Assembly: GCF_000724545.1 (NCBI RefSeq)
Contig: NZ_JHBV01000020.1
Coordinates: forward strand, 62,001-126,000
DNA from: Aureispira sp. CCB-QB1
GTDB taxonomy: Bacteria > Bacteroidota > Bacteroidia > Chitinophagales > Saprospiraceae
Direction of reading: 5' to 3'
DNA length: 64,000 bases
The notes below the pieces were generated by a model. It ran no database searches, was not told the DNA's origin, and saw only the letters and a list, made by a program, of their open reading frames with translations. A program made the position numbers and the translations under genes. Numbering within the stretch: position 1 is the stretch's first letter; the number at the start of each line of letters is the position of its first letter. Positions 3,812 through 60,457 of this stretch are shown one piece after another.

Positions 3812-5638
3812 CTAAAAGCGATAGCCTAGGAGAACATATCCTCCTAAATGGATGATATTAGTTTTATCCTCGTTAGCATTCAACACACTATTTCCTTTAA
3901 AGATATTAGATGCGCCAATATCCGAACGAAGCCCATACCCTAATACAAATTTATCAATCAGTACTTCTTGCCCCAATGCCACTTTAAATCCAACATCAAA
4001 TTGATGATAATCTGATTGTTTGTCAAAAAATAGAACACCATCGTAAAATAATTTCGCTTCTCTCATCACTCCTACATAAATCCCCGCTTGTGCTACTACC
4101 TTTGTATTAACGAGCTTTTTGCTATTTGTTTGCCAGATAGCATGCTTGTATGCCAATGAGAGCCTATTGTATTTCATGACCCACTCTTTGATATAAAAGA
4201 CACCTTTTTGATACATGCCATATGCTTGTCGATTATCGGCATTAATTGAGAATTCAGCAACCAAAGCCCCTTTAGGAATAATTTGATACGATGCCCATAA
4301 GCCATAATTAGCAGCCAAACCAAAGTAATTTGTAGTTAAACTGTTTTGGTCAAATCCCTCTCTAGTTTCATTATTCAACAACATTGTTGAATTAACGACC
4401 ATAAAAGCACCAGCTTCCAACTTTCCTTCTACCAAATTCTTTTTTGCTTTTCGTTCTAGTTTCATTTCGTCCAACAACCGAATTGGCTCCACCGTATGAC
4501 CTATTGCTAAAGGATTTATTGTAGAACGATCCAGCCATATTATATCGAATTGTTTTTTTGCTACAAGAGCCTCCTTATTTTTAAGGAAATTAACATCCGA
4601 CGGGCTCACTTTTGTCCCTTTAGAATCAATAGGCTGGCTACTTGTTGCTGCATGACTTGGCAAGAGACCTTTTTCAATTTCACTAGCTACAATTGGTAAT
4701 TCATTATCAGAACTTGTTTCTTTTTTAGAATCAACTGCCAGTACTTTTTTGGATACATCAACTTGCTTATTACTCGACAGTTTGTTAGAAGACGAATGAA
4801 GTCCCCTTTGGGTTGGAAACTGAGCTATTAATTTTTTCTTTTTTGTTTTGGTATCCTTTGAATTATTAGAGTTTCTTGATGCTAATCTATTATTAGGTTT
4901 TTTTGATAATGGAGCAATAACAGGTTTAGATACACCTGATGGGGTATTTGTAGGATCTTTTTTAGTTACTAAAGGCATCAGTACCTGATCATTTGATTCC
5001 TTATTTTGCAACTGTTGAACAAAATCAGTACTTGGAATAGTATAAGGTTCATGTGTACAAGTTTTTAATAACAACAACAACAAGACCGCACTGGCTAGAA
5101 AAGCTAACATACGCCCACTCCAATCACTTACTATAGGCTCTTTGTCCAGCACTTTACTAATGCGTTCCCAAGTTTTGTCGATATTCAGTTGGCGACTAAC
5201 AGCATACCATACTCTATTGGGTGTTTTCTTAGATTCTTGTGAAAGAAAGCCTTGTTTTAATTTGTTGTCTAAAACTTCATCTATGGATGTTGCAGAACTG
5301 CTTAATTCATCAGAGATAGCCCCCCACAAAAAAGCAGGTGCTATATTTTTAGTATTTGACAAAAAACCATCTTTGATTTTCTCATCTAGTACTGCATCTA
5401 TCGAAGGCGTTTCATCTAGATTTTTTTCAACCTTTTGCCATATACCCAAAGGAGCTTTCTGTATTGGTATCTCAGAATGAGCTGCGTGCACTTTTTCATC
5501 TAAAGATTTATCCACAGCCTTTTCCAAATCCATTTTGCCAACAATACGCCCCCACAGGTCTGTAGGTGCTTGCTTTTGATAAGCATCAAAAGAAGTCTTT
5601 ATTTTTGCATCAATATGTTGGTCCAAATTACTTTTCAT
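3812..5638 (-). CDS. Dual membrane-spanning anti-sigma factor-like protein with C-terminal outer-membrane barrel
   Basis: The partner of the ECF sigma gene, whose 3' end it overlaps by 11 bases. The N-terminal cytoplasmic part (residues 1-165) has four tandem copies of a 38-39-residue module with an IDxxLDxKIKxxF helix followed by PxxxWxxI; the tryptophans sit at 29, 67, 105 and 144. A single transmembrane helix follows at about 177-191. Residues about 192-390 are a low-complexity Ser/Lys/Asn-rich linker. Residues about 395-608 are rich in alternating aromatic/polar strands and end in GYVLLGYRF, with a terminal Phe as in outer-membrane beta-signals. This order (anti-sigma domain, inner-membrane helix, disordered periplasmic linker, small barrel) matches the dual membrane-spanning anti-sigma factors reported in Bacteroides thetaiotaomicron, where they influence vesiculation. 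Bridging both membranes is inferred here. The four-fold module is unusual. Confidence 0.7.
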   Translation of the reverse strand: MKSNLDQHIDAKIKTSFDAYQKQAPTDLWGRIVGKMDLEKAVDKSLDEKVHAAHSEIPIQKAPLGIWQKVEKNLDETPSIDAVLDEKIKDGFLSNTKNIAPAFLWGAISDELSSSATSIDEVLDNKLKQGFLSQESKKTPNRVWYAVSRQLNIDKTWERISKVLDKEPIVSDWSGRMLAFLASAVLLLLLLKTCTHEPYTIPSTDFVQQLQNKESNDQVLMPLVTKKDPTNTPSGVSKPVIAPLSKKPNNRLASRNSNNSKDTKTKKKKLIAQFPTQRGLHSSSNKLSSNKQVDVSKKVLAVDSKKETSSDNELPIVASEIEKGLLPSHAATSSQPIDSKGTKVSPSDVNFLKNKEALVAKKQFDIIWLDRSTINPLAIGHTVEPIRLLDEMKLERKAKKNLVEGKLEAGAFMVVNSTMLLNNETREGFDQNSLTTNYFGLAANYGLWASYQIIPKGALVAEFSINADNRQAYGMYQKGVFYIKEWVMKYNRLSLAYKHAIWQTNSKKLVNTKVVAQAGIYVGVMREAKLFYDGVLFFDKQSDYHQFDVGFKVALGQEVLIDKFVLGYGLRSDIGASNIFKGNSVLNANEDKTNIIHLGGYVLLGYRF

Positions 5639-6188
5639 TATTCTTGCTCAGCAACTGTTTTAATAATGTTCTTGCACGGTGTAGCTGAGACTTTGAGGTT
5701 CCTTCACTAATGTCAAGCTTTTCAGCAATTTCTTTATGATTGTATCCTTCTACGGCATAAAGCTTGAGCACCATCGCAGCTCTAGAAGGCAACTCATTGA
5801 CCAAAGCAATTAAGTCTTGGGCATCTATTTGCTCTAAAACATTGCCAATCGTTGGACTTATTGCCACCTGTGTATAGGATTCTAGTTTTTCTTCGTGTCG
5901 TTTTTGTTTTCGGTAGTGGTCTAATGCAGTATTGATAATAATTCGTCTTACCCAACCTTTTAGAGAGCTTTCAAAATTGAATTGTTCCAATTTTCTAAAA
6001 ACCTTGATAAAGCCATCTTGGAGAATATCACAAGCAGCATCTTCATCGTTGTTATAAGAAAGACAAACACTATACATTTGGTCTGCATATTTTCGATAGA
6101 GCAATTCTTGGTACTGGCGCTCGTTGGCAATGCAACGTTGCACGAGTTCTCTCTCCGAAATATCGTTTATATCCAAATTATCTTTCAC
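5628..6188 (-). CDS. ECF RNA polymerase sigma factor
   Basis: A 186-residue sigma-70 family protein. Region 2 spans about residues 25-90 (ILQDGFIKVFRKLEQF, then WVRRIIINTALDHYRK) and region 4 about 130-182 (VEGYNHKEIAEKLDISEG, then KSQLHRARTLLKQLL). There is no region 1.1 or 3, as expected for the extracytoplasmic-function class. The start codon is GTG at 6188-6186; no ATG is available in the right place. It starts 6 bases after the stop of the lipoprotein gene and overlaps the anti-sigma gene, so the three genes form one transcription unit. Its activity is presumably held by the downstream envelope-spanning protein. Confidence 0.92.
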   Translation of the reverse strand: MKDNLDINDISERELVQRCIANERQYQELLYRKYADQMYSVCLSYNNDEDAACDILQDGFIKVFRKLEQFNFESSLKGWVRRIIINTALDHYRKQKRHEEKLESYTQVAISPTIGNVLEQIDAQDLIALVNELPSRAAMVLKLYAVEGYNHKEIAEKLDISEGTSKSQLHRARTLLKQLLSKNNEK

Positions 6189-6194
6189 GCTCAG

Positions 6195-6887
6195 TTAGCT
6201 TTGTTTTACAAAAATCGCTTCAATAGCATTATCTTTTAACGAAGTTACAATGTCTTCATATAATTGTTTATTGATTTTACTGTTAATCAATATAGTATTT
6301 ATTCCTTTAACCGAAACTTTTTCTGCCTTTTCTAAAGCTTTTTTGGGCAAAACAGCAAACCATTTAGCAGGATTGAGCAAAATAGTTGCCTTTGTTTTAG
6401 AATTTTGAAGCAAGTCAACTTCTTTATCGTTCTCAATCAAATCTTTGCCTACTATTGAAAATGTTTCCAATTGATTCAACTCAAAGCGAATAGGATAAGA
6501 AGTACCGAAAGAATTTTTAAAAATTCCATCAATTACCATATTAGCTTCTTCTTTGTTGGGTACGGTTTTTATTTCTAGATTGATTCCTGTATAAGTACCT
6601 TGCGGGACATCAAACTCTAACCCTTCCACATTTGCCGCTCCAAAAGTTGTATTAATCTTCTGCTCATAATGTTTTGTAAAATAAACATCTGCTCCTTGCA
6701 CTCTTTTGCCATCAAACTGAAAGGACTCAATTACAATATAACCATTTTTAAAAAATAAAGCACCGTCCATAATGGTCTCTTCTTCTAGGTCAATCTCAAA
6801 ACAAACTTGAGTTGGCTGTTTCCACTGATTTACTTTAGAACAAGCAAAAATCCCCAGAATAAAAAAGCAAAAAATTTTTAACCCCAT
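6195..6887 (-). CDS. Putative lipoprotein, first gene of the sigma factor operon
   Basis: A 230-residue protein with a lipoprotein signal ending FFILGIFAC (Cys at about 16). The mature part is predicted mostly beta and resembles DUF4382-like Bacteroidota lipoproteins in its GTYTGINLEIK stretch, but I do not firmly recognise it. The stop is 6 bases before the GTG of the sigma gene, so it is co-transcribed with the sigma/anti-sigma pair. It could be an envelope sensor or a target of the system; that is inference from position only. Confidence 0.65.
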   Translation of the reverse strand: MGLKIFCFFILGIFACSKVNQWKQPTQVCFEIDLEEETIMDGALFFKNGYIVIESFQFDGKRVQGADVYFTKHYEQKINTTFGAANVEGLEFDVPQGTYTGINLEIKTVPNKEEANMVIDGIFKNSFGTSYPIRFELNQLETFSIVGKDLIENDKEVDLLQNSKTKATILLNPAKWFAVLPKKALEKAEKVSVKGINTILINSKINKQLYEDIVTSLKDNAIEAIFVKQS

Positions 6888-7201
6888 AGCATATCATTTT
6901 CTTTTAAGACGTCTTTAAATTTTGATAGGTTGGAAGTATCTATTTTTTTTTATTTACAACACTATTATCAGATTGTCCTCAAACAGCATACACGCTAGAG
7001 TTACAACAATATATTTATATTAAATTAATAAAAAATTATCCAAAAAAATAGAATCAAGATTTTGTTTTATATTTTTTTTATTGTAGTTTGAATTAAAAGA
7101 TAGCCAGTTATACATTCAACAACAAAGTATGATTACTTTGAGATTTTGTATTTAAACGTCCCATAACCAAATTTTATTCACCACTTCCCCAAAATTTAAA
7201 C
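6888..7201. other. Divergent intergenic region between sigma operon and metalloprotease
   Basis: AT-rich region between two divergent start codons. It must carry promoters for both directions. No gene, repeat box or hairpin of note was seen. A sequence matching the sigma factor's own promoter could lie here, but I could not identify one. Confidence 0.4.
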
Positions 7202-9424
7202 ATGAAAAGTTTAAAGAAAAATTTCCCACTAATCCTTTTCTTACTATGCACAGGATTTGTACTCAATGCACAAAATGCACAACAACATTTGCACAGTCAT
7301 GGAACACCACACCAAGAATGTGCTACACACGCAACTCAAGGGCAGCTTGACTACATGAACAGAACCCTGAGAGAGCGCCAAAGTTATGTTGACAATGGGC
7401 GTTCAGGAACAATTTATATTCCTGTTCGACACATTATTGTCCGTAAAACAGATGGTACAGGAGGAATCTCCAATACCAATTTACAAAATGCAATGGATGG
7501 ATTAAATGCCGCTTATGCGGTTGCCAATGTACAGTTCTACGAGTGTAGTAGAGCCTATGTAAACGACGATACTTATTACACTTTTGAAACCTCCGAAGAA
7601 GCAGCTTTAGCAGCAGCTTATGAAGTTTCTAATGTAGTAAATGTCTTTCATTGTAATACCGTTTCTAATGGTGCAGGAAGTTCTTACTGCGGATATGCCT
7701 ACTATCCTGGAGGTGCCGATAGAATTTTCATGGCCAACGGCTGTACCACCAATGGAAGCACATTGATTCACGAATTTGGGCATTACTTTTCTGTTCGTCA
7801 CACCCACAACGCTGGTAATGAGCTAGTCAATGGTAGTAACTGTAGTACTGCTGGTGATCAAATTTGTGACACTCCTGCCGATCCTAATTTATCAGGTAAA
7901 GTAAATGGTTCTTGTGTTTATACAGGTACTGATGTAGATGCAAATGGTGATAGCTATACGCCACAAACGACCAACTATATGTCGTATTCCAGAAAAAGCT
8001 GTAGAACAGTATTCACGCCTGGGCAAATTGCTCGTCTTCGTTATAGTGCCATTAACGATAGAGCTTATTTGACCTGTTCTTGTTTTACGTATGATTTTGT
8101 AGGTTCTCACAACCTTGGTACCGATGTTACTAGCCACAATTATACTGTTTCTGCCAATACATCACTAACTACTGTTTATAACTGTGACAGCGATCCTCAA
8201 CAACTACGTGTTGGTTCTTGTTCTGCTTCTGGCGGAGACTTTGTTAGTGTAGAGTTTGACGTGCCTGCTGGTACAGACAAACTAAGATTGTTACTCAAAG
8301 GTGGTTGGCAAAACAATCATAGCGAAGTGCACATTGACGGACAATACCAACGTGATTTTACTTTATCAACTACCAACTGTAGCAGCGGTTATACCTATGT
8401 TTATGTTTACAATATTTCTAATCATACACAAGATGGAAAAGTAGTTATCAAATTGGTTGATCCTGAAGCAGGTTGTACAGGAGATTTTAACATTGATTAC
8501 ATGTATGTATATGCCGCTAATTGTAACCAAAGTGGCTATGCAAAAATTCCATATTTCACCAACTTCAACTCTGGTGTATTAGATAATTACTGGTTGACGC
8601 AAAGTTCTAACGAATTTGGACGTGCTGAATTGACCAATGCCAATGGTCCTTATTCTGGAGCCTATCACTTGGTGATGGATGTCAATACTAATAATAACTA
8701 TGCTACCAATCAAGCTGATTTAAGAGTTGACTTATCTGGATGTACTAGTCCTAAGATACTCTTCAGATGGAAAGAGTTTTTAGATGAAACACATACACAA
8801 GATGGCGTTTATTTATCAGACGATGGTGGTGAGAACTTTGTTAAGGTCCATGACCTAACGGGAGCAGCCAACAACACTTGGACAGCTGTTACACTTGACT
8901 TGGCTGCTTTGGCTACTGCCAATAGCCTAACACTAAGTGAAGAATTTGTTATCCGTTTCCAACAGTATGACAATTATGGTGCTACGACTGACGGAATTGC
9001 TATTGACTATGTCTATGTTTATGGTTGTAACAACGTTCCTTCTCCGATGGTTATGATAACAGACAACGATCGAGCTAAAGGAGATGTACTTAGTGTATAC
9101 CCTGGATCAGGAAATGAAACCAATGATGCTCTTACAACTAGCGTAGAAAAAATTGCTAACAAAGCAGAAGTGGATTTATTCCCTAACCCTGCCAATCAAA
9201 TTATTAGTCTAAACTTTAGACAATTCAAAGCAGATGATGAGTTAACGGTTAAAGTAATTAGTATGTTGGGTGCTGTTCAGTATACGACAACACACACTAT
9301 TAATAATGCTCAATCTGATATTTTAGAATTATCTGTAGAACAGCTACCTGCTGGAGTCTATAGCGTTATCATAGAAAACGCAACAACAACCGTTACCAAC
9401 AAACCTTTTGTCATCAAACGCTAA
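7202..9424 (+). CDS. Secreted M43-like metalloprotease with T9SS sorting domain
   Basis: A zinc endopeptidase exported by the type IX secretion system. There is a signal peptide at residues 1-23 (ending VLNAQ). The catalytic domain of about 50-295 holds HEFGHYFSVRH, which fits HExxHxxxxxH, and the Met-turn TNYMSYS further on, as in pappalysin/cytophagalysin (M43) enzymes. In the usual metzincin HExxHxxGxxH the Gly is replaced by Ser here. Many Cys residues in the catalytic part suggest disulfides. Two beta-sandwich regions follow: about 300-440, then a MAM-like region of about 445-610 with TNFNSG and DGVYLSDDGG. The C-terminal type A sorting domain starts at VDLFPNPANQ and ends with FVIKR. 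It is a single gene with its own terminator. Confidence 0.88.
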   Translation: MKSLKKNFPLILFLLCTGFVLNAQNAQQHLHSHGTPHQECATHATQGQLDYMNRTLRERQSYVDNGRSGTIYIPVRHIIVRKTDGTGGISNTNLQNAMDGLNAAYAVANVQFYECSRAYVNDDTYYTFETSEEAALAAAYEVSNVVNVFHCNTVSNGAGSSYCGYAYYPGGADRIFMANGCTTNGSTLIHEFGHYFSVRHTHNAGNELVNGSNCSTAGDQICDTPADPNLSGKVNGSCVYTGTDVDANGDSYTPQTTNYMSYSRKSCRTVFTPGQIARLRYSAINDRAYLTCSCFTYDFVGSHNLGTDVTSHNYTVSANTSLTTVYNCDSDPQQLRVGSCSASGGDFVSVEFDVPAGTDKLRLLLKGGWQNNHSEVHIDGQYQRDFTLSTTNCSSGYTYVYVYNISNHTQDGKVVIKLVDPEAGCTGDFNIDYMYVYAANCNQSGYAKIPYFTNFNSGVLDNYWLTQSSNEFGRAELTNANGPYSGAYHLVMDVNTNNNYATNQADLRVDLSGCTSPKILFRWKEFLDETHTQDGVYLSDDGGENFVKVHDLTGAANNTWTAVTLDLAALATANSLTLSEEFVIRFQQYDNYGATTDGIAIDYVYVYGCNNVPSPMVMITDNDRAKGDVLSVYPGSGNETNDALTTSVEKIANKAEVDLFPNPANQIISLNFRQFKADDELTVKVISMLGAVQYTTTHTINNAQSDILELSVEQLPAGVYSVIIENATTTVTNKPFVIKR

Positions 9425-9763: not shown

Positions 9764-11296
9764 ATGCAACATCAATATATCCAAGATTTTGCTCAATACG
9801 AAGATGGAACCGAAGTCACTATAAAAGGCTGGATTGACAAACCTCGTAACAGCAAAACCAACCACTTTTTTGATTTCCGTGATGGTACTGGTTTTACTCA
9901 ATGTGTCGTTTCTTTAGACACTGTTGGGGAAGAAGCTTTTGAGCAAGCCAAACGCTTGACAGTAGAAAGCTCTGTTGCTTTTACAGGCAAGCTTCTACGC
10001 AACGATAAAAGTTTAGGTGGATACGAAATACAAGTTAGCAGTTATGATATTTATCATATTGCAACCGATTTTCCCATTACAAAATCAGATGGCGAGCACG
10101 GTCCTAACTTTTTGGAAGAACGTCGCCATCTTTGGCTCCGCAGACGCCGCCAATGGGCCATCAATCGAGTAAGAAACCAACTGATTATGGGAATCCATGA
10201 TTTTTTCCAAAAGGATGGTTTCGTTCAAATGGATGCTCCCTTGATGACAGGTTCTGCTTGTGAAGGAACAACCGATTTATTTGAAACAGACTTCTTTGGA
10301 CAACCTGCTTATTTGTCTCAATCTGGACAATTATATGCCGAAGCGATGGCAATGGCAATGAACAAGGTCTATACCTTCGGTCCTACTTTCCGTTCGGAAA
10401 AATCAAATACACCACGCCACTTAGCTGAATTCTGGATGATAGAGCCTGAGGTTGCTTTTGCAACCAACGAAGATAACATGGTTCTCATTGAGCGTTTTGT
10501 AAAACACGTTATCGCTCATGTCTTGGATAAATGTAAAATCGAATTTGACTTGCTGGAAAGAGATACTTCTAAACTACAAGCAGTTGTCGATGGTAAATTC
10601 CCACAAGTCGCTTATTCTGATGCGGTCAAAATTCTAAATGGATTGGTGGATGTTGATGGCAAGAATGCTATTCAGCTTCAAGAAGATGACTTAGCAGCAG
10701 CAAGAGCATTAATCGTTCGTCACAAAGAAGAAATTGCGACACGAGAAAAGGCGATTAAAGCAGGTATGAAAAAGGGAGCTAGAAAACACAGCGAACAAGT
10801 TATTGCCAAATTGCAAGCCGAAATAAAAATTGCTGAAGAACAAGAAAGAAACATTCCCAAATGGATTGAATCAGCCAAAAACTTCAAACATGGAGAGGAT
10901 TTAGGTAGCTCAGACGAAACGGTACTAACTCGTGTATTCTCTACTCCTGTGATGGTTTATAACTGGCCTACTAAGATTAAAGCATTTTACATGAAGGAAG
11001 TCGATGGAAATCCTGAATTTGTAAAAGGAGTCGATCTATTAGCTCCAGATGGCTTTGGTGAAATCATTGGTGGTTCTGAAAGGGAAACAGATATTGACAT
11101 TTTGTTGAAAAAGATTGAGGAGCATGAATTAGATCAAGCTGATTTTGAGTGGTACCTTGACTTACGTCGCTTTGGTTCTGTCCCTCATGCGGGTTTTGGT
11201 TTGGGCTTAGAGCGTTTGGTTCGTTGGTGTTGTGACTTGCATCACGTTAGAGAAACCATTCCATTCCCTCGTCGCTATGGACATATCAAGCCTTAA
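9764..11296 (+). CDS. asnS: Asparaginyl-tRNA synthetase
   Basis: Charges tRNA-Asn with asparagine using ATP in the cytoplasm. The N-terminal OB-fold anticodon-binding domain is at residues 1-105 (VTIKGWIDKPRNSK). The class IIb catalytic core follows, with motif 2 in FRSEKSNTPRHLAEFWM at about 210-226 (the NTPRHLAEF signature separates AsnRS from AspRS) and motif 3 in GFGLGLERLVRW near 473-484. The protein is 510 residues, longer than the E. coli enzyme, because of a charged, probably helical insertion at about 305-375. Such an insertion is familiar in Bacteroidota AsnRS. It is a single gene followed by a strong terminator. Confidence 0.95.
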   Translation: MQHQYIQDFAQYEDGTEVTIKGWIDKPRNSKTNHFFDFRDGTGFTQCVVSLDTVGEEAFEQAKRLTVESSVAFTGKLLRNDKSLGGYEIQVSSYDIYHIATDFPITKSDGEHGPNFLEERRHLWLRRRRQWAINRVRNQLIMGIHDFFQKDGFVQMDAPLMTGSACEGTTDLFETDFFGQPAYLSQSGQLYAEAMAMAMNKVYTFGPTFRSEKSNTPRHLAEFWMIEPEVAFATNEDNMVLIERFVKHVIAHVLDKCKIEFDLLERDTSKLQAVVDGKFPQVAYSDAVKILNGLVDVDGKNAIQLQEDDLAAARALIVRHKEEIATREKAIKAGMKKGARKHSEQVIAKLQAEIKIAEEQERNIPKWIESAKNFKHGEDLGSSDETVLTRVFSTPVMVYNWPTKIKAFYMKEVDGNPEFVKGVDLLAPDGFGEIIGGSERETDIDILLKKIEEHELDQADFEWYLDLRRFGSVPHAGFGLGLERLVRWCCDLHHVRETIPFPRRYGHIKP

Positions 11297-11672: not shown

Positions 11673-14600
11673 TTAAATAAAAGCGTCTACCACATAACGT
11701 TCCCCTCCTTCTTTGATCGCATCAAACCATTTTTCAGCTTCTTGTTCAGACACATTTGCCATGCTCTTGTAAATATTAACAAATGTTTTTTGAACTGCAG
11801 GTACCATATACTGACCATCTCCACAAACAAACACTTTGGCTCCCTGTTGGAAAAGTTGGTATACTTTCTCTCGTTCTGCCCATAATTTATGTTGAACAAA
11901 TTTAATCTCATCATCAAAGGCACTATATGCCCTAAATACTTTGACAATATTTTCTTTCTCCCACTGATTAAACTCATCAACATATAGTGCGTCAACATTG
12001 GGATGATCACAACCAAAAAACAACACAGTCTCCCCGATAGCCTGTCCTTTGGATTTAAGAACAGATCGCTCTTGAACAAATCCTCTGAAAGGAGCTATAC
12101 CGCTACCTGCCGCAATCATAATAACTGGCACAGTAGGGTCTTCTGGAAGATGAAAAGCGGTCGCTGCTGGTTGGGTTTCAATTTGGACTTGTCCGCCAAC
12201 AGGTAAGCCAGCCAAGTAATTGGATGCTAAACCTTTATAGTCACCCTGCCCTGACCAAGCAGGCGAATGAACAACAGCAACCGTTAGAGCCACCTTTTGA
12301 TTATCTAAATAAGGGGATGAAGCAATGGAATACAAGCGAGTTTTTATCGGTGGAAGCATTTTTAGCAACTCTTTCAAAGGAATATCAACAGACATATAGC
12401 GCTCTAACAAATCTAAAACACTAATTCGTTTCTTTAAAACTTCTTTTTCATAGACTTCTTTTGGCACCAATGCTTCTAAGGCATACTTTTCAGGAGGACA
12501 CAAACAATAAGATGCTAATGTCTCTATTTGTTTGGGCGTAGCTGGTTGCCCTAATTCTACATAATTGGTAAAAATATCAAGCAGTGTAATAGGATAACCA
12601 ACGGGCAAATGAAACTGTTGCATAGCTTCCGCTTGAATTGTAATTTGTGTATCTACGCTATAGCCCAAGCGGCGAAAAATTCGATCAATATTTTCTTTGG
12701 GATTGCTAGGAAGAATGGACAAATAATCTCCTGAATTATACTCCATCCCTTTAGGTAACTCAATCTCTATGTGCCTTTTCGAGCGTCCTAAAGGATGTGT
12801 CATATCGACCAACTCTTCGTTCCTTAAAACGATCCCTTTTCGTAGAATCTTTTGTTCAAGCGTTTTCAATCGGTCATTCGATATTTTTACCGAAAAATCT
12901 TGCCCTTTCAGGATTTCACGAGGCATTTTTGCCCAAAACATCTCTTGCCATTTCTCAAAATCATCATAAACATTGGCAGCACCATTCAAGGCTCCTCTTT
13001 CTACAATAGGCTTTGCTCCCATTTTAAATAATAATTGATCTACTTGCGTAGGAACAGCTTGATACGTTTTCACCCAATCTTTATGCCCACACCCCAACAC
13101 GGCATAAGACATACCTTTAAGTTTTCCATCTTGAAGCTCCTCCAACCATTCTAAAAATTTTACAGCATTTCTTGGCGGTTTTCCCTCGTAGGAAGCGGTC
13201 ACAATAACCGTAGGTACTTTGGGGCTAAGTTGGTCAATTGCATCGTCCATAGCACTTATTGTTGGTCGATATCCAAATTGACAAGCTTGCTGGTAAATGT
13301 TTCGAGCAAATCCTTCGGAAAGCCCTGTATTAGATCCAAATAAGATTAATAATGGTTTTCCAGTAGTACGACCTACAGGTAAATCAACTACTTCTTTAAC
13401 TTTTTTCTGTTTATTAGAAGCTTCGTTTTCTATGATAATTTCTTTTCTTTTCACCCTCATTTTAAAATCATCGGGTTTGATTGTAATTGCTTCTTTTATT
13501 TTTAGTTGATAATTGGGGTTATCCCTAGATATCTCAAATCGTTGTAACAACATAGATAATGCTAAAACAGCTTCTTGTATGGCAAAAAAGCGACCAATAC
13601 AAGCCCTTCTACCACTACCAAAAGGTTTAAAACAGTCCTCTGGAAGTTGATCTATATTGTTGGCAGCAAAGCGTTCGGGACGAAACTGCTCGACATCTTC
13701 TCCCCAAACTGTTTTATCTTTATGCAACCACTCTATTAGAATCGTTACCGTCTCATCCTTTTTGATTAAATACTCACCACCTATCACAGTATCTTCCAGT
13801 GCAGCAACACTATACATGGGCGCAATTGGATGCAATCGCAAGGTTTCTTTCAAAATTTGATCGATATACATCAATTTAGGAAGATGATCTATTGTTGGTT
13901 GTTGATTACCTAATACCTTATCAACTTCTGCTTGAGCTAGCTTCAATTTATCAGGGTTGTTCAACAACTCATAAATAGCAAAAGTCAACAGCCCACTAGT
14001 CGTTTCATGTCCTGCGATCAAAAATGTAATCATTTGATTTTTAATATTCTCATCCGTAAGCCGTTCGCCACTAATTGGATCAACACCATTTAACATAACA
14101 TTCAGCAAATCGTTGTACTTATGTCTATTCGGATCTTTTTTTCTGGTTTGAACAATTTCAGCACCAACTGTATGCATGTATTCAATATTAGAAAAATACG
14201 TCCGATTGGTATTGACCATTAACTTTGTTTGAAGAGGAAATCGAACAATCCGATTTCCCATTTCTGTCAAGCTATCAACCATTGATTTGACAAAAGGATG
14301 TAACTCATCTGAATAAAAACTATTAAATCGGTAGTTAAAGCTGCATAGAGCAATCGTATCTAGTGTCAGTTTTGTCATTTCGTCTGAAACATCAAATACG
14401 TGTGCCTCTCCCATTCGCTCAAATTTTAGCATCATTTGCTCGGCTATATCCAACATTTGTGGAAATAAATTTCGAATAGCTACGGGACCAAAAGCGGGCA
14501 TCAACAACCGATGTGCTTTGCCCCATGCCAAACTATTCGTGTCAGCGGTTACCAATCCATCGCCCAACAGCTTTTGTATCTCTTTGAACGATTGATTGAC

Positions 14601-14819
14601 GTTTTTAGCAAAACGACTTTCATCAGAAACCTCATGTACTAATTCTTGAGATCCTAAAATGATCATATTGTTGTTAGGTAACAACAGCTTAAAAATTCGA
14701 CCAGCCTCAAAATCTTTGGCAATAGCAGATAAACTTTGGCTAAAAGCTTTAGGGCTAATTAATTTGAGGTTGCCAAGGAACGGGAATGTTTTTGGAGTTG
14801 GGATGCTTGAATTCGACAT
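11673..14819 (-). CDS. Self-sufficient cytochrome P450 / NAD(P)H-P450 reductase fusion (CYP102, BM3-like)
   Basis: A monooxygenase fused to its own diflavin reductase, 1048 residues, the length of B. megaterium P450 BM3 (CYP102A1). The heme domain covers residues 1-470: AGHETTSG at 269-276, ExxR at 325-328 and heme ligand Cys407 in FGSGRRACIG. The FMN domain begins near 488 with FGSNTG at 494-499. The FAD/NADPH domain covers about 655-1048, with RLYSIASSP for FAD, CGDG near the end and aromatic Phe1047 at the C-terminus. By alignment from memory with BM3, Arg47, Tyr51 and Phe87 correspond to Asn50, Ile54 and Val90, so the classic fatty-acid carboxylate anchor is missing. NADPH-binding Arg966 corresponds to Ala967. 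The substrate is therefore uncertain. It lies 171 bases downstream of an AraC-type regulator in the same direction. Confidence 0.95.
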   Translation of the reverse strand: MSNSSIPTPKTFPFLGNLKLISPKAFSQSLSAIAKDFEAGRIFKLLLPNNNMIILGSQELVHEVSDESRFAKNVNQSFKEIQKLLGDGLVTADTNSLAWGKAHRLLMPAFGPVAIRNLFPQMLDIAEQMMLKFERMGEAHVFDVSDEMTKLTLDTIALCSFNYRFNSFYSDELHPFVKSMVDSLTEMGNRIVRFPLQTKLMVNTNRTYFSNIEYMHTVGAEIVQTRKKDPNRHKYNDLLNVMLNGVDPISGERLTDENIKNQMITFLIAGHETTSGLLTFAIYELLNNPDKLKLAQAEVDKVLGNQQPTIDHLPKLMYIDQILKETLRLHPIAPMYSVAALEDTVIGGEYLIKKDETVTILIEWLHKDKTVWGEDVEQFRPERFAANNIDQLPEDCFKPFGSGRRACIGRFFAIQEAVLALSMLLQRFEISRDNPNYQLKIKEAITIKPDDFKMRVKRKEIIIENEASNKQKKVKEVVDLPVGRTTGKPLLILFGSNTGLSEGFARNIYQQACQFGYRPTISAMDDAIDQLSPKVPTVIVTASYEGKPPRNAVKFLEWLEELQDGKLKGMSYAVLGCGHKDWVKTYQAVPTQVDQLLFKMGAKPIVERGALNGAANVYDDFEKWQEMFWAKMPREILKGQDFSVKISNDRLKTLEQKILRKGIVLRNEELVDMTHPLGRSKRHIEIELPKGMEYNSGDYLSILPSNPKENIDRIFRRLGYSVDTQITIQAEAMQQFHLPVGYPITLLDIFTNYVELGQPATPKQIETLASYCLCPPEKYALEALVPKEVYEKEVLKKRISVLDLLERYMSVDIPLKELLKMLPPIKTRLYSIASSPYLDNQKVALTVAVVHSPAWSGQGDYKGLASNYLAGLPVGGQVQIETQPAATAFHLPEDPTVPVIMIAAGSGIAPFRGFVQERSVLKSKGQAIGETVLFFGCDHPNVDALYVDEFNQWEKENIVKVFRAYSAFDDEIKFVQHKLWAEREKVYQLFQQGAKVFVCGDGQYMVPAVQKTFVNIYKSMANVSEQEAEKWFDAIKEGGERYVVDAFI

Positions 14820-58972: not shown

Positions 58973-60457
58973 ATGCACAAAATACGAATCATATCTTTAT
59001 CTATTATTTGCTCTATTGCATTTATTCCTTCTTCTAAAGCTCAGCTAAATTTATACTCAGGTCAAAATGCGCTCCGCAGCAATACCACTGGTGTTCATAA
59101 TACTGCTACTGGAAATGATTGCTTGCGCAACAACTCTTCTGGCAGCTACAACACAGCCTACGGCATGGGAACAATGTATAGCAATCGAGAAGGGAAAAGC
59201 AATACCTCTATTGGTTATCAATCGCTATATAGAAATACTTCTGGTACAGAAAATGTTGCTGTAGGCGCCAATGCACTCAACAGCAACAGCACTGGAAATT
59301 ACAACACAAGCCTAGGTACCTTTTCTTTGGGCTTTAATAGAAATGGGATGAACAATACCGCAGCAGGCTATCATGCACTCATGAGCAATACATCTGCTTC
59401 AGCCAACACGGCCTTTGGAGCTTATGCCCTACAAAGCAATACTACTGGAGAAAACAATGTAGCTTTGGGGTATTACTCCTTGTATAATAATAGTCTAGGT
59501 AGCAGTAATGTAGCTTTAGGTACCAATACATTGGGTAATAACACTTCTGGGAATGAAAATGTAGCGAGTGGTCACCACTCTATGATGAGAAATACGACAG
59601 GAAGTTACAATATAGCAATGGGAAGCAATTCTTTACACAACAACCTAAATGGTACTAAAAATATTGCCATAGGCTATTCTAGCATGTATAAAAATGTCTC
59701 TGGGCTAAACAATACTGCTATTGGGGCTACAAGCATGGAAAATAACTCTTCGGGTGACCACAATACAGCACTTGGGTTCCAAAGTATGAAAGACAATAAA
59801 ACGGGCAACGAAAATGTTGCTATAGGATATGATGCCTTACTTAGAAATACTGCTGGCAATAAAAATACAGCAGTAGGATACAATGCTTATGGACGTGGTT
59901 TTGCTTATGGAAATTCGACAGCTATTGGTGCCAATGCACATGTTTCAGCAAGTAATCAAATGCGTTTTGGAGATGAAAAAGTCACAAGCATTGGTGGGCA
60001 AGTTTCTTGGTCCAAATTATCAGACAAACGTTTTAAGACCAATGTTCAAGCCAATGTTCCTGGTTTAGATTTTATCAACTTGTTAGAACCCGTTACATAT
60101 TATGTAGATGCACAAAAATTGCGTGACTACCAAGGCGTGGAAGAATGCGCCCCTTCTGACAATAACTGGATCCTCGAAACAGGTTTCTTAGCACAAGACG
60201 TAGAACAAGCTGCTCTGTCTTTGAATTTTGAATTTAGTGGTGTTGACAAGCCAGAGTCCAACGAAGATTACTATGGATTGCGATATGCAGATTTTACCGT
60301 ACCTTTGGTTAAAGCAGTTCAAGAATTATCACAAGAAAACAAGGCTCTGAAAGCTAAAATTCAACTACTGGAACAAGATCATAAACGTCTGGCTACCCTA
60401 GAACAGGAAATCGAAGAAATAAAAACATTATTAAATACCAATGCGCAAATAGACTAA
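58973..60457 (+). CDS. Surface repeat protein with S74-type intramolecular chaperone domain
   Basis: A 494-residue exported protein with a signal peptide ending SKAQ (residue 24). From residue 30 to 319 the sequence repeats every 17 residues without any insertion (seventeen units marked by a Gly at 30, 47, 64, 81, 98 and so on), with a GxxxLxxNTTGxxNxAx pattern. This suggests a beta-roll or head-like fibre. Residues about 343-450 are an S74-type chaperone domain: SDKRFKTN at 350-357 holds the Ser350/Lys355 dyad and TGFLAQDVEQAA follows. A coiled coil ends the chain (about 446-488). By analogy with endosialidase tailspike proteins, the domain may fold a trimer and cut itself off. It is followed 3 bases later by a Nudix gene. 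Confidence 0.88.
   Translation: MHKIRIISLSIICSIAFIPSSKAQLNLYSGQNALRSNTTGVHNTATGNDCLRNNSSGSYNTAYGMGTMYSNREGKSNTSIGYQSLYRNTSGTENVAVGANALNSNSTGNYNTSLGTFSLGFNRNGMNNTAAGYHALMSNTSASANTAFGAYALQSNTTGENNVALGYYSLYNNSLGSSNVALGTNTLGNNTSGNENVASGHHSMMRNTTGSYNIAMGSNSLHNNLNGTKNIAIGYSSMYKNVSGLNNTAIGATSMENNSSGDHNTALGFQSMKDNKTGNENVAIGYDALLRNTAGNKNTAVGYNAYGRGFAYGNSTAIGANAHVSASNQMRFGDEKVTSIGGQVSWSKLSDKRFKTNVQANVPGLDFINLLEPVTYYVDAQKLRDYQGVEECAPSDNNWILETGFLAQDVEQAALSLNFEFSGVDKPESNEDYYGLRYADFTVPLVKAVQELSQENKALKAKIQLLEQDHKRLATLEQEIEEIKTLLNTNAQID

Follow-up and report, generated by a model that had tools for sequence, protein, structure and literature searches.

The locus described here raises the question of how an anti-sigma protein that carries four similar modules in its N-terminal region is to be understood. 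To our knowledge, the usual description of an anti-sigma factor gives it a single sigma-binding domain. One such domain per protein is likewise what the available portions of two published accounts describe (PMC13088901; PMC7406223), and no published report of a tandem anti-sigma module was found.

Operon and protein architecture

The protein is encoded in a stretch of 64,000 nucleotides from the marine bacterium Aureispira sp. CCB-QB1 (the window), in a minus-strand operon with the gene order lipoprotein, ECF sigma factor, anti-sigma factor. The features are listed below; identities are those among the four orthologues that have four modules.

6905..6935, minus strand: ECF-type promoter candidate TTCCAACC-N16-CGTCTTA, before the operon, sole match without mismatch in the window
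6195-6887, minus strand: lipoprotein, 230 aa, ATG start, first gene of the operon, beta-rich
5628-6188, minus strand: ECF sigma factor, 186 aa, GTG start
3812-5638, minus strand: tandem-module, predicted dual-membrane anti-sigma factor, 608 aa
5528..5620, minus strand: anti-sigma module 1, residues 7-37, 60% identity
5414..5509, minus strand: anti-sigma module 2, residues 44-75, absent from three-module orthologues
5300..5395, minus strand: anti-sigma module 3, residues 82-113 (78-113 with the first profile), 61% identity
5183..5278, minus strand: anti-sigma module 4, residues 121-152, closest to the membrane, 72% identity
5114..5182, minus strand: juxtamembrane Trp helix, residues 153-175, 80% identity
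5060..5119, minus strand: inner-membrane helix, residues 174-193
4427..5053, minus strand: variable low-complexity periplasmic tether, residues 196-404, 26% identity
3815..4426, minus strand: predicted C-terminal outer-membrane barrel, residues 405-608, 86% identity

The sigma and anti-sigma genes overlap by 11 bases, and the sigma factor, which matches Pfam Sigma70_r2 (5.5e-17) and Sigma70_r4_2 (6.6e-16), is 67-95% identical to seven orthologues in the genus. The GTG-started, overlapping sigma gene and the opening lipoprotein gene of the preliminary description of this DNA are thus confirmed. The lipoprotein is homologous to those of paralogous operons on another contig, C12 (hhalign probability 99.8, E 1.4e-28); it has no Pfam family above the cut-off and no match in the PDB at E ≤ 0.001, the matches among its relatives are weak and scattered, and at one locus (L044) its position holds no ORF of at least 100 aa. 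An artefact of a single genome was rejected, since anti-sigma orthologues occur in all seven other genomes of the genus that were examined, one of them split over two contigs (G007) and another cut by a contig end (G001).

The 608-residue protein consists, in order, of four tandem modules of about 31 residues, one membrane helix, a tether of about 210 residues and a predicted OmpA-like barrel. The modules are 47-72% identical among the four-module orthologues, as against 26% for the tether, and have diverged to 18-42% identity with each other; in the structure model their region has a pLDDT of about 30-51. The membrane helix is marked by a hydropathy window at residue 173, the sole peak in the first 450 residues, and by a model helix at 173-193. 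Ten-residue pLDDT means of 22-34 characterise the tether, within which two low-confidence helices are drawn (205-209 and 347-373). In the C-terminal domain the model places nine strand segments within residues 407-607, eight of them of at least 13 residues and one short, and Foldseek matches it to OmpA (E 2.5e-7 to 5.6e-6), OmpW, NspA and OmpX; it is probably an eight-stranded barrel, and its final residue is Phe. The earlier outline of the protein therefore stands in each of its parts: the four modules with Trp29, 67, 105 and 144, a single membrane helix (placed at 177-191, found at about 173-193), a low-complexity linker of about 200 residues and a barrel-like C-terminus ending in Phe. The juxtamembrane helix, in which W157 and W173 are invariant in seven orthologues, did not figure in that outline.

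Nature of the repeated modules

A profile was trained on 34 single-module anti-sigma factors, all from outside the family; a rigid version was run first, and a loop of flexible length (-1 to +5 residues) was then introduced. With the flexible loop the profile matches exactly four modules in the anti-sigma protein, scoring 16.5, 12.9, 7.1 and 14.0 for modules 1 to 4, where shuffled sequences give a mean best score of -7.3 (sd 4.4). A fourth-best score as good as that observed was reached by none of 2000 shuffles, and the individual scores of modules 1, 2 and 4 were likewise never reached; that of module 3 was reached by 0.5%. Chance repeats are rejected on these counts, with the caution that under the rigid, ungapped profile module 1 alone passes (16.5; 0/5000 shuffles), modules 2-4 scoring from -8.7 to -10.4, inside the null, and still ranking in the top five windows of the full-length protein. 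Since lone scores of 7-9 arise elsewhere (one of 8.7 occurs in a 1075-aa protein of the window), the case for module 3 is drawn from its position in the series, its conservation and its score of 30.7 with a retrained profile.

A coiled linker or an unrelated repeat was also rejected, because the single-module relatives sit in the same place before a membrane helix, beside ECF sigma genes. The four matches to a single-module profile thus identify the module, as far as sequence can, as an ordinary, very short anti-sigma domain of the Bacteroidota that has been multiplied. The fourfold multiplication proposed in the preliminary description is in this respect borne out, and it is not unique: the counts in the Bacteroidota run from one to five.

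Module number among relatives

Among 101 sigma-linked proteins, one, two, three, four and five modules occur in 57, 18, 11, 6 and 8, respectively, at about 38 residues each, and the membrane helix shifts by 38 residues with every added module (r 0.96 over these 101 proteins). These counts come from the retrained profile (whose null, from 505 shuffled regions, is 0.008 modules per region) and are partly circular, because it was retrained on the surveyed proteins. The survey took the best sigma matches per genome in 40 family regions and 40 class regions, mostly in list order. Two family regions (L062 and L064) had no downstream gene, a family match at a contig edge (G033) was left out, as were several genomes of the class (among them G231, G182, G219, G151, G164, G224, G203, G199 and G210), and the Aureispira loci were selected for their resemblance to the operon described here. 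The organism's own genome has ECF-linked genes with one, two, three, four and five modules. A five-module profile run against 296 genomes of the phylum found 5 genomes at E ≤ 1e-5, the organism's own among them, which is no estimate of prevalence because divergent arrays are poorly detected.

The Aureispira orthologues have three or four modules. Whole modules have been gained or lost, and module 2 is the one that the three-module orthologues lack: it falls in a gap of their alignment, and the module trees, built on 31 columns and weakly supported, agree. That close relatives within one genus differ in count is what would be expected if duplication were neutral and copy number simply drifted through recombination between repeats, with little effect, as would be the observation that in several arrays the modules are more alike internally than they are to those of other arrays. 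This explanation is nevertheless quite improbable, for the four diverged modules are conserved in parallel in four orthologues, and arrays of at least three modules occur in three GTDB families (f1, f20 and f32).

In 12 representative arrays the Trp is kept in 10/12 first, 20/24 internal and 12/12 last modules, so that the arrays are not one live unit with debris. Modules that do lack it (1 and 4 of L054, 2 of L059, 1 and 3 of L061, 3 of L168) imply that not all modules need be active. Its retention in every last module fits a further alternative, in which sigma is bound by the membrane-proximal module only, together with the juxtamembrane helix, and the others are spacers or sites for different partners, which might be RNA polymerase, a protease adaptor or further sigma factors. 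Module 4 and the juxtamembrane helix (72% and 80% identity) are the most conserved of the cytosolic parts, with the W157 helix beside the membrane (N152-L164) highest of all, and the two might bind sigma alone. Against such an arrangement, which we regard as unlikely, modules 1-3 retain the signature of single-module anti-sigma factors and are conserved far above the tether, and the best score with the single-module profile belongs to module 1. More than one module probably participates in sigma binding.

Relation to known anti-sigma factors

In its layout the protein resembles the Dma proteins of Bacteroides. It has four profile matches to an anti-sigma domain at its N-terminus, one transmembrane helix, a long disordered tether and a predicted C-terminal beta-barrel, a layout that, together with an adjacent ECF sigma factor, it has in common with Dma2 as presented in the part of PMC13088901 available. 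Dma2 has, in the same part, one N-terminal domain, whereas the Aureispira protein has four tandem modules and its relatives one to five. The sigma factors of the Dma family belong to the ECF21 group, and that of Aureispira, adjacent and overlapping, is ECF by its Pfam domains. Of the distant membership that had been proposed, the layout holds, and the likeness to the Dma family, which influences vesiculation, is one of layout.

Class I anti-sigma domains (RseA, RskA, ChrR, RsiW) have an average length of 101 and several helices according to the portion of PMC7406223 at hand. Anti-sigma control of an ECF sigma factor would be common to them and the Aureispira protein, in which no anti-sigma family in Pfam or NCBIfam, class I included, matches at E ≤ 1. 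The class II, CnrY-like factors offer another comparison. In CnrY two helices suffice to cover sigma4 and sigma2, as the same portion describes (PMC7406223). CnrY and the Aureispira module are both very short two-helix units; the binding mode is compared by analogy only, and no solved relative was found by sequence (best E 0.86).

Upstream promoter candidate

The candidate site before the operon is covered by no ORF of at least 60 aa in the window. The pattern TTNCAACC-N16-CGTCWTA, an ECF-type promoter by its look, precedes the operon in 9/9 genomes of the genus (the entry for G237, of the same species, is taken from identical sequence and spacing) and is found in 6/6 aligned upstream regions, in which the spacer sequence differs. 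More widely, CAACC-N16-CGTC lies upstream of 23/99 operons (one a duplicate, L048), while each of the other spacer lengths between 10 and 23 gives 0-3. Nine of these sites (L054, L059, L063, L066, L067, L071, L082, L087 and L096) were dropped, because they lie about 1 kb upstream within open frames of more than 140 residues and are probably coding sequence. There remain seven distinct operons of the window type in Aureispira, one site 761 bases upstream (L099) and five sites no more than 150 bases from where the sigma gene starts (L058, L095, L105, L112 and L126). Within that distance, spacers of 14, 15 and 16 occur in 1, 3 and 5 of 98 operons and none at the others from 8 to 25. The odds given here are unaltered by this reduction, because the genus-wide site stands.

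Across the genome, CAACC-N16-CGTC is not commoner than its reversed control (25 matches vs 60). Seven matches are not covered by an ORF of at least 110 aa; for five of these an ORF begins no more than 320 bases downstream, and the operon is one of the five. With one mismatch, TTNCAACC-N16-CGTCNTA is unenriched over the control in 8/9 genomes of the genus (a tie in G004; 13 vs 10 in G006). The genome-wide pattern scan gave no large regulon, and no clear one apart from the operon and a single small gene.

Proposed mechanism

The explanation that best accounts for these observations, to which we give a probability of about 0.7, is an envelope-spanning anti-sigma factor whose four-copy array holds the ECF sigma factor, with sensing linked to the barrel and autoregulated release. 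By tandem duplication, the short two-helix unit found in ordinary anti-sigma factors of the Bacteroidota would have reached four copies, and the cytosolic array would keep the co-encoded sigma factor inactive. The membrane helix and the long tether would join the array to the small outer-membrane barrel, which, perhaps with the co-transcribed lipoprotein, would monitor the condition of the outer membrane. Once that condition changed, the sigma factor would be freed and would transcribe its own operon, using the CAACC-N16-CGTC site. Sequence establishes the architecture, the homology of the four modules to single-module anti-sigma factors, the upstream site throughout the genus and the gain or loss of entire modules. 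We infer the nature of the signal, the binding of sigma by each module and the role of the upstream site as the sigma factor's own promoter; by the same token, the array may raise the sigma-holding capacity, or the avidity, per costly sensor molecule, and so sharpen a titration switch.

How the copies would work together admits two further readings. Several modules may act on one sigma, either on different surfaces or as a continuous helical scaffold, for a tighter hold or a slower release. In two arrays (L054 and L072) the module starts are 28-36 residues apart with almost no linker, a spacing that may be too tight for each module to hold a sigma of its own, the low-confidence model runs the Trp helix of module 1 into the first helix of module 2 (one helix, 26-56), and the overlap of the sigma and anti-sigma genes fits roughly equal synthesis. 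However, 57/101 relatives have one module only, and most modules retain the full two-helix signature and are not specialised halves; we consider such a clamp possible, if rather doubtful. The other reading, which we hold tentatively and at somewhat short of even odds, is that of a sigma magazine, in which one envelope-spanning sensor holds several sigma factors on its tandem modules and evolution tunes the threshold and gain of the ECF switch by adding or deleting whole modules, of which one to five occur within a single genome. If this were true, one outer-membrane event would release a burst of sigma.

Significance

The relatives with one to five units indicate that bacteria seem to change the number of sigma-holding units on one sensor. 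They form a natural series in which a 31-residue unit, located ahead of a membrane helix in proteins encoded next to ECF sigma genes, is present in one to five copies, partly within one genome, and it thereby becomes testable how the number of binding sites and the stoichiometry set the threshold and sharpness of an ECF switch. A compact profile has been gained for anti-sigma factors of the Bacteroidota, of a kind that Pfam and NCBIfam leave unnamed in this protein, and a candidate promoter is available for following the switch.

The operon and its setting

The window belongs to contig C20, part of a genome of 7.37 Mb, and holds the following operon:

6195-6887, minus strand: lipoprotein gene, operon member
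5628-6188, minus strand: ECF sigma gene with a GTG start, recognised by Pfam and NCBIfam
3812-5638, minus strand: predicted anti-sigma gene (608 aa), overlapping the ECF sigma gene by 11 bases

Neither Pfam nor NCBIfam, both of which recognise the adjoining sigma, assigns the 608-aa protein to an anti-sigma family. Its layout is that of the Dma family, the dual membrane-spanning anti-sigma factors of Bacteroides, which are described as having an N-terminal anti-sigma domain (PMC13088901). Literature searches, in which subscription journals are thinly covered, returned no report of tandem, duplicated, repeated or multiple anti-sigma domains. Judged from the searched literature, the layout is known and the tandem multiplication of the anti-sigma unit appears to be new.

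The lipoprotein has no Pfam match above cut-off and is homologous to lipoproteins of paralogous operons on contig C12; the family (window 6195-6887, minus strand; locus L045, 3860-4561) goes with multi-module Aureispira operons, and the L044 operon is without a counterpart. The divergent gene adjoining the operon (7202-9424, plus strand) encodes an HExxH-bearing, apparently secreted protein. A similar gene is present in loci L039 and L056 and absent at that place in L041-L043, where the neighbour resembles the window gene at 9764-11296, whose product we take to be asparaginyl-tRNA synthetase. Two other window genes have been described from sequence alone:

11673-14819, minus strand: 1048-aa protein
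58973-60457, plus strand: protein of many short NTAxGxxxLxxN-like repeats

The former resembles a cytochrome P450 of the self-sufficient type, with the reductase on the same chain, and the C-terminal part of the latter resembles an intramolecular chaperone.

Evidence for four modules

The comparison set, taken from other genomes, consists of the genes that immediately follow related ECF sigma genes. Most such proteins from outside the family carry one short N-terminal unit (helix, loop, Trp helix) and a membrane helix around residue 50. A rigid profile built from 34 single-module proteins places only module 1 of the window protein above the null (16.5; 0 of 5000 shuffles); modules 2-4, in which the loop is longer, score -8.7 to -10.4, yet they are three of the protein's five best windows. 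When the loop may be shortened by 1 residue or lengthened by up to 5, this flexible profile matches residues 7-37 (16.5), 44-75 (12.9), 78-113 (7.1) and 121-152 (14.0), the next-best match being -8.0. Shuffled cytosolic regions scored likewise gave a mean best score of -7.3 (maximum 12.1), and the observed fourth score was reached as a fourth best in 0 of 2000 shuffles. Judged by these profile scores, the four modules are real. Module 3 by itself is not decisive, because a score of 8.7 turns up once among 48 other window ORFs; it scores 30.7 with the retrained profile, which was rebuilt on the surveyed proteins and is hence partly circular.

Structure of the whole protein

The AlphaFold2 model was computed with seven sequences, and its confidence is low overall (mean pLDDT 44.0, pTM 0.33). 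It places low-confidence helices at every module, a membrane helix at residues 173-193 and a tether of pLDDT 22-34 containing two doubtful helices, followed by nine strand segments within 407-607, eight of them of at least 13 residues. From residue 401 on, 14 of 21 ten-residue blocks reach a mean pLDDT of at least 60. Foldseek matches this domain to OmpA, OmpW, NspA and OmpX, so that the C-terminal barrel proposed in the preliminary description is borne out by prediction.

Module number and its history

Among 101 scanned proteins, best sigma hits and not a random sample, the partly circular module counts are none in 1, one in 57, two in 18, three in 11, four in 6 and five in 8; the membrane helix shifts by 38.2 residues per module (r 0.96; 101 proteins), and the null is 0.008 modules per shuffled region (505 regions). 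The group breakdown covers 98 proteins (minus the window protein, L167 and L168). One module is found in 20/39 Saprospiraceae proteins outside Aureispira, two or more in 18/39 and none in 1/39, while proteins of the order and class have one in 37/41 and more in 4/41; the 18 Aureispira operons, picked for similarity to the window operon, have 2 to 5. Outside the family, L132 has five modules. Three strong modules, plus an N-terminal fourth Trp unit uncounted by the scan, are present in L167, which comes from a different family within the order. Single-module genes also exist in Aureispira. The genome that contains the window has 36 sigma-70 region-2 hits, and 23 of them are followed immediately by an ORF of 100 aa or more; 12 of these ORFs have no module, seven have one (three weak, scores 6-9), and one ORF each has 2, 3, 4 and 5.

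Eight short two-module Saprospiraceae proteins (L060, L063, L066, L067, L071, L082, L087 and L096; 216-284 aa) are too short for a tether and barrel, and their second module continues into an [IL]PLxL stretch preceding the membrane helix.

Orthologues of the window protein occur in 7/7 other genus genomes compared, with four modules in G006, G001 and G003 and three in G004, G005, G002 and G007, where one whole module is missing at the position of window module 2. A module tree of modest support, including two three-module orthologues, groups window module 1 with their first, 3 with the middle and 4 with the last, and places module 2 elsewhere. Four-module orthologues are 26% identical in the tether, 86% in the barrel and 80% in the juxtamembrane Trp helix; across modules 1-4 the values are 60, 47, 61 and 72%. 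In several arrays the modules are closer to one another than to those of other arrays (L057, 0.49 vs 0.22), whereas L059 and L061 lack this likeness; some expansions therefore look lineage-specific.

Upstream site and candidate regulon

The pattern TTNCAACC-N16-CGTCWTA, with a diverged spacer, is common to six aligned upstream regions, shortly 5' of the lipoprotein start. A mismatch-free site stands at the operon in 9/9 genus genomes, the window's among them; in G237, which is the same species, it is deduced because sequence and spacing are both identical. Across 98 operons, the stretch within 150 bases of the sigma start contains CAACC-Nn-CGTC with n=16 five times, 15 three times and 14 once, and never at any other n from 8 to 25, which lends modest support to CAACC-N16-CGTC outside window-type operons. 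Genome-wide, the pattern is not enriched over its control. The pattern fits a candidate autoregulated ECF promoter.

Nine further CAACC-N16-CGTC matches were dropped, as they lie roughly 1 kb 5' of the sigma gene, within open frames, in Saprospiraceae loci (L054, L059, L063, L066, L067, L071, L082, L087, L096); they probably recur because these loci have a neighbour gene in common whose coding sequence is conserved.

A TTNCAACC-N16-CGTCNTA site also lies 177-294 bases before the start of a gene for a 79-aa protein (MKHQITKEDL...) in G000, G237, G001 and G006 (L156, L148, L141, L145), a possible second regulon member.

Function of the module array

The two helices of CnrY cover sigma4 and sigma2 (PMC7406223); by analogy, a unit as short as a window module can suffice for sigma binding. 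Class I domains are reported there to be associated with only 6% of Bacteroidetes ECFs, which would fit a different kind of anti-sigma being common in this group. Binding by the last module of the array only is unlikely, and a firmer grip of the array on one sigma ranks a close second in plausibility. On the favoured reading, the window protein is an anti-sigma factor with a multiplied short unit, tethered to a small outer-membrane barrel, in an operon probably autoregulated by its own sigma; its array may hold several sigmas, a reading to which we give a probability of about 0.4.
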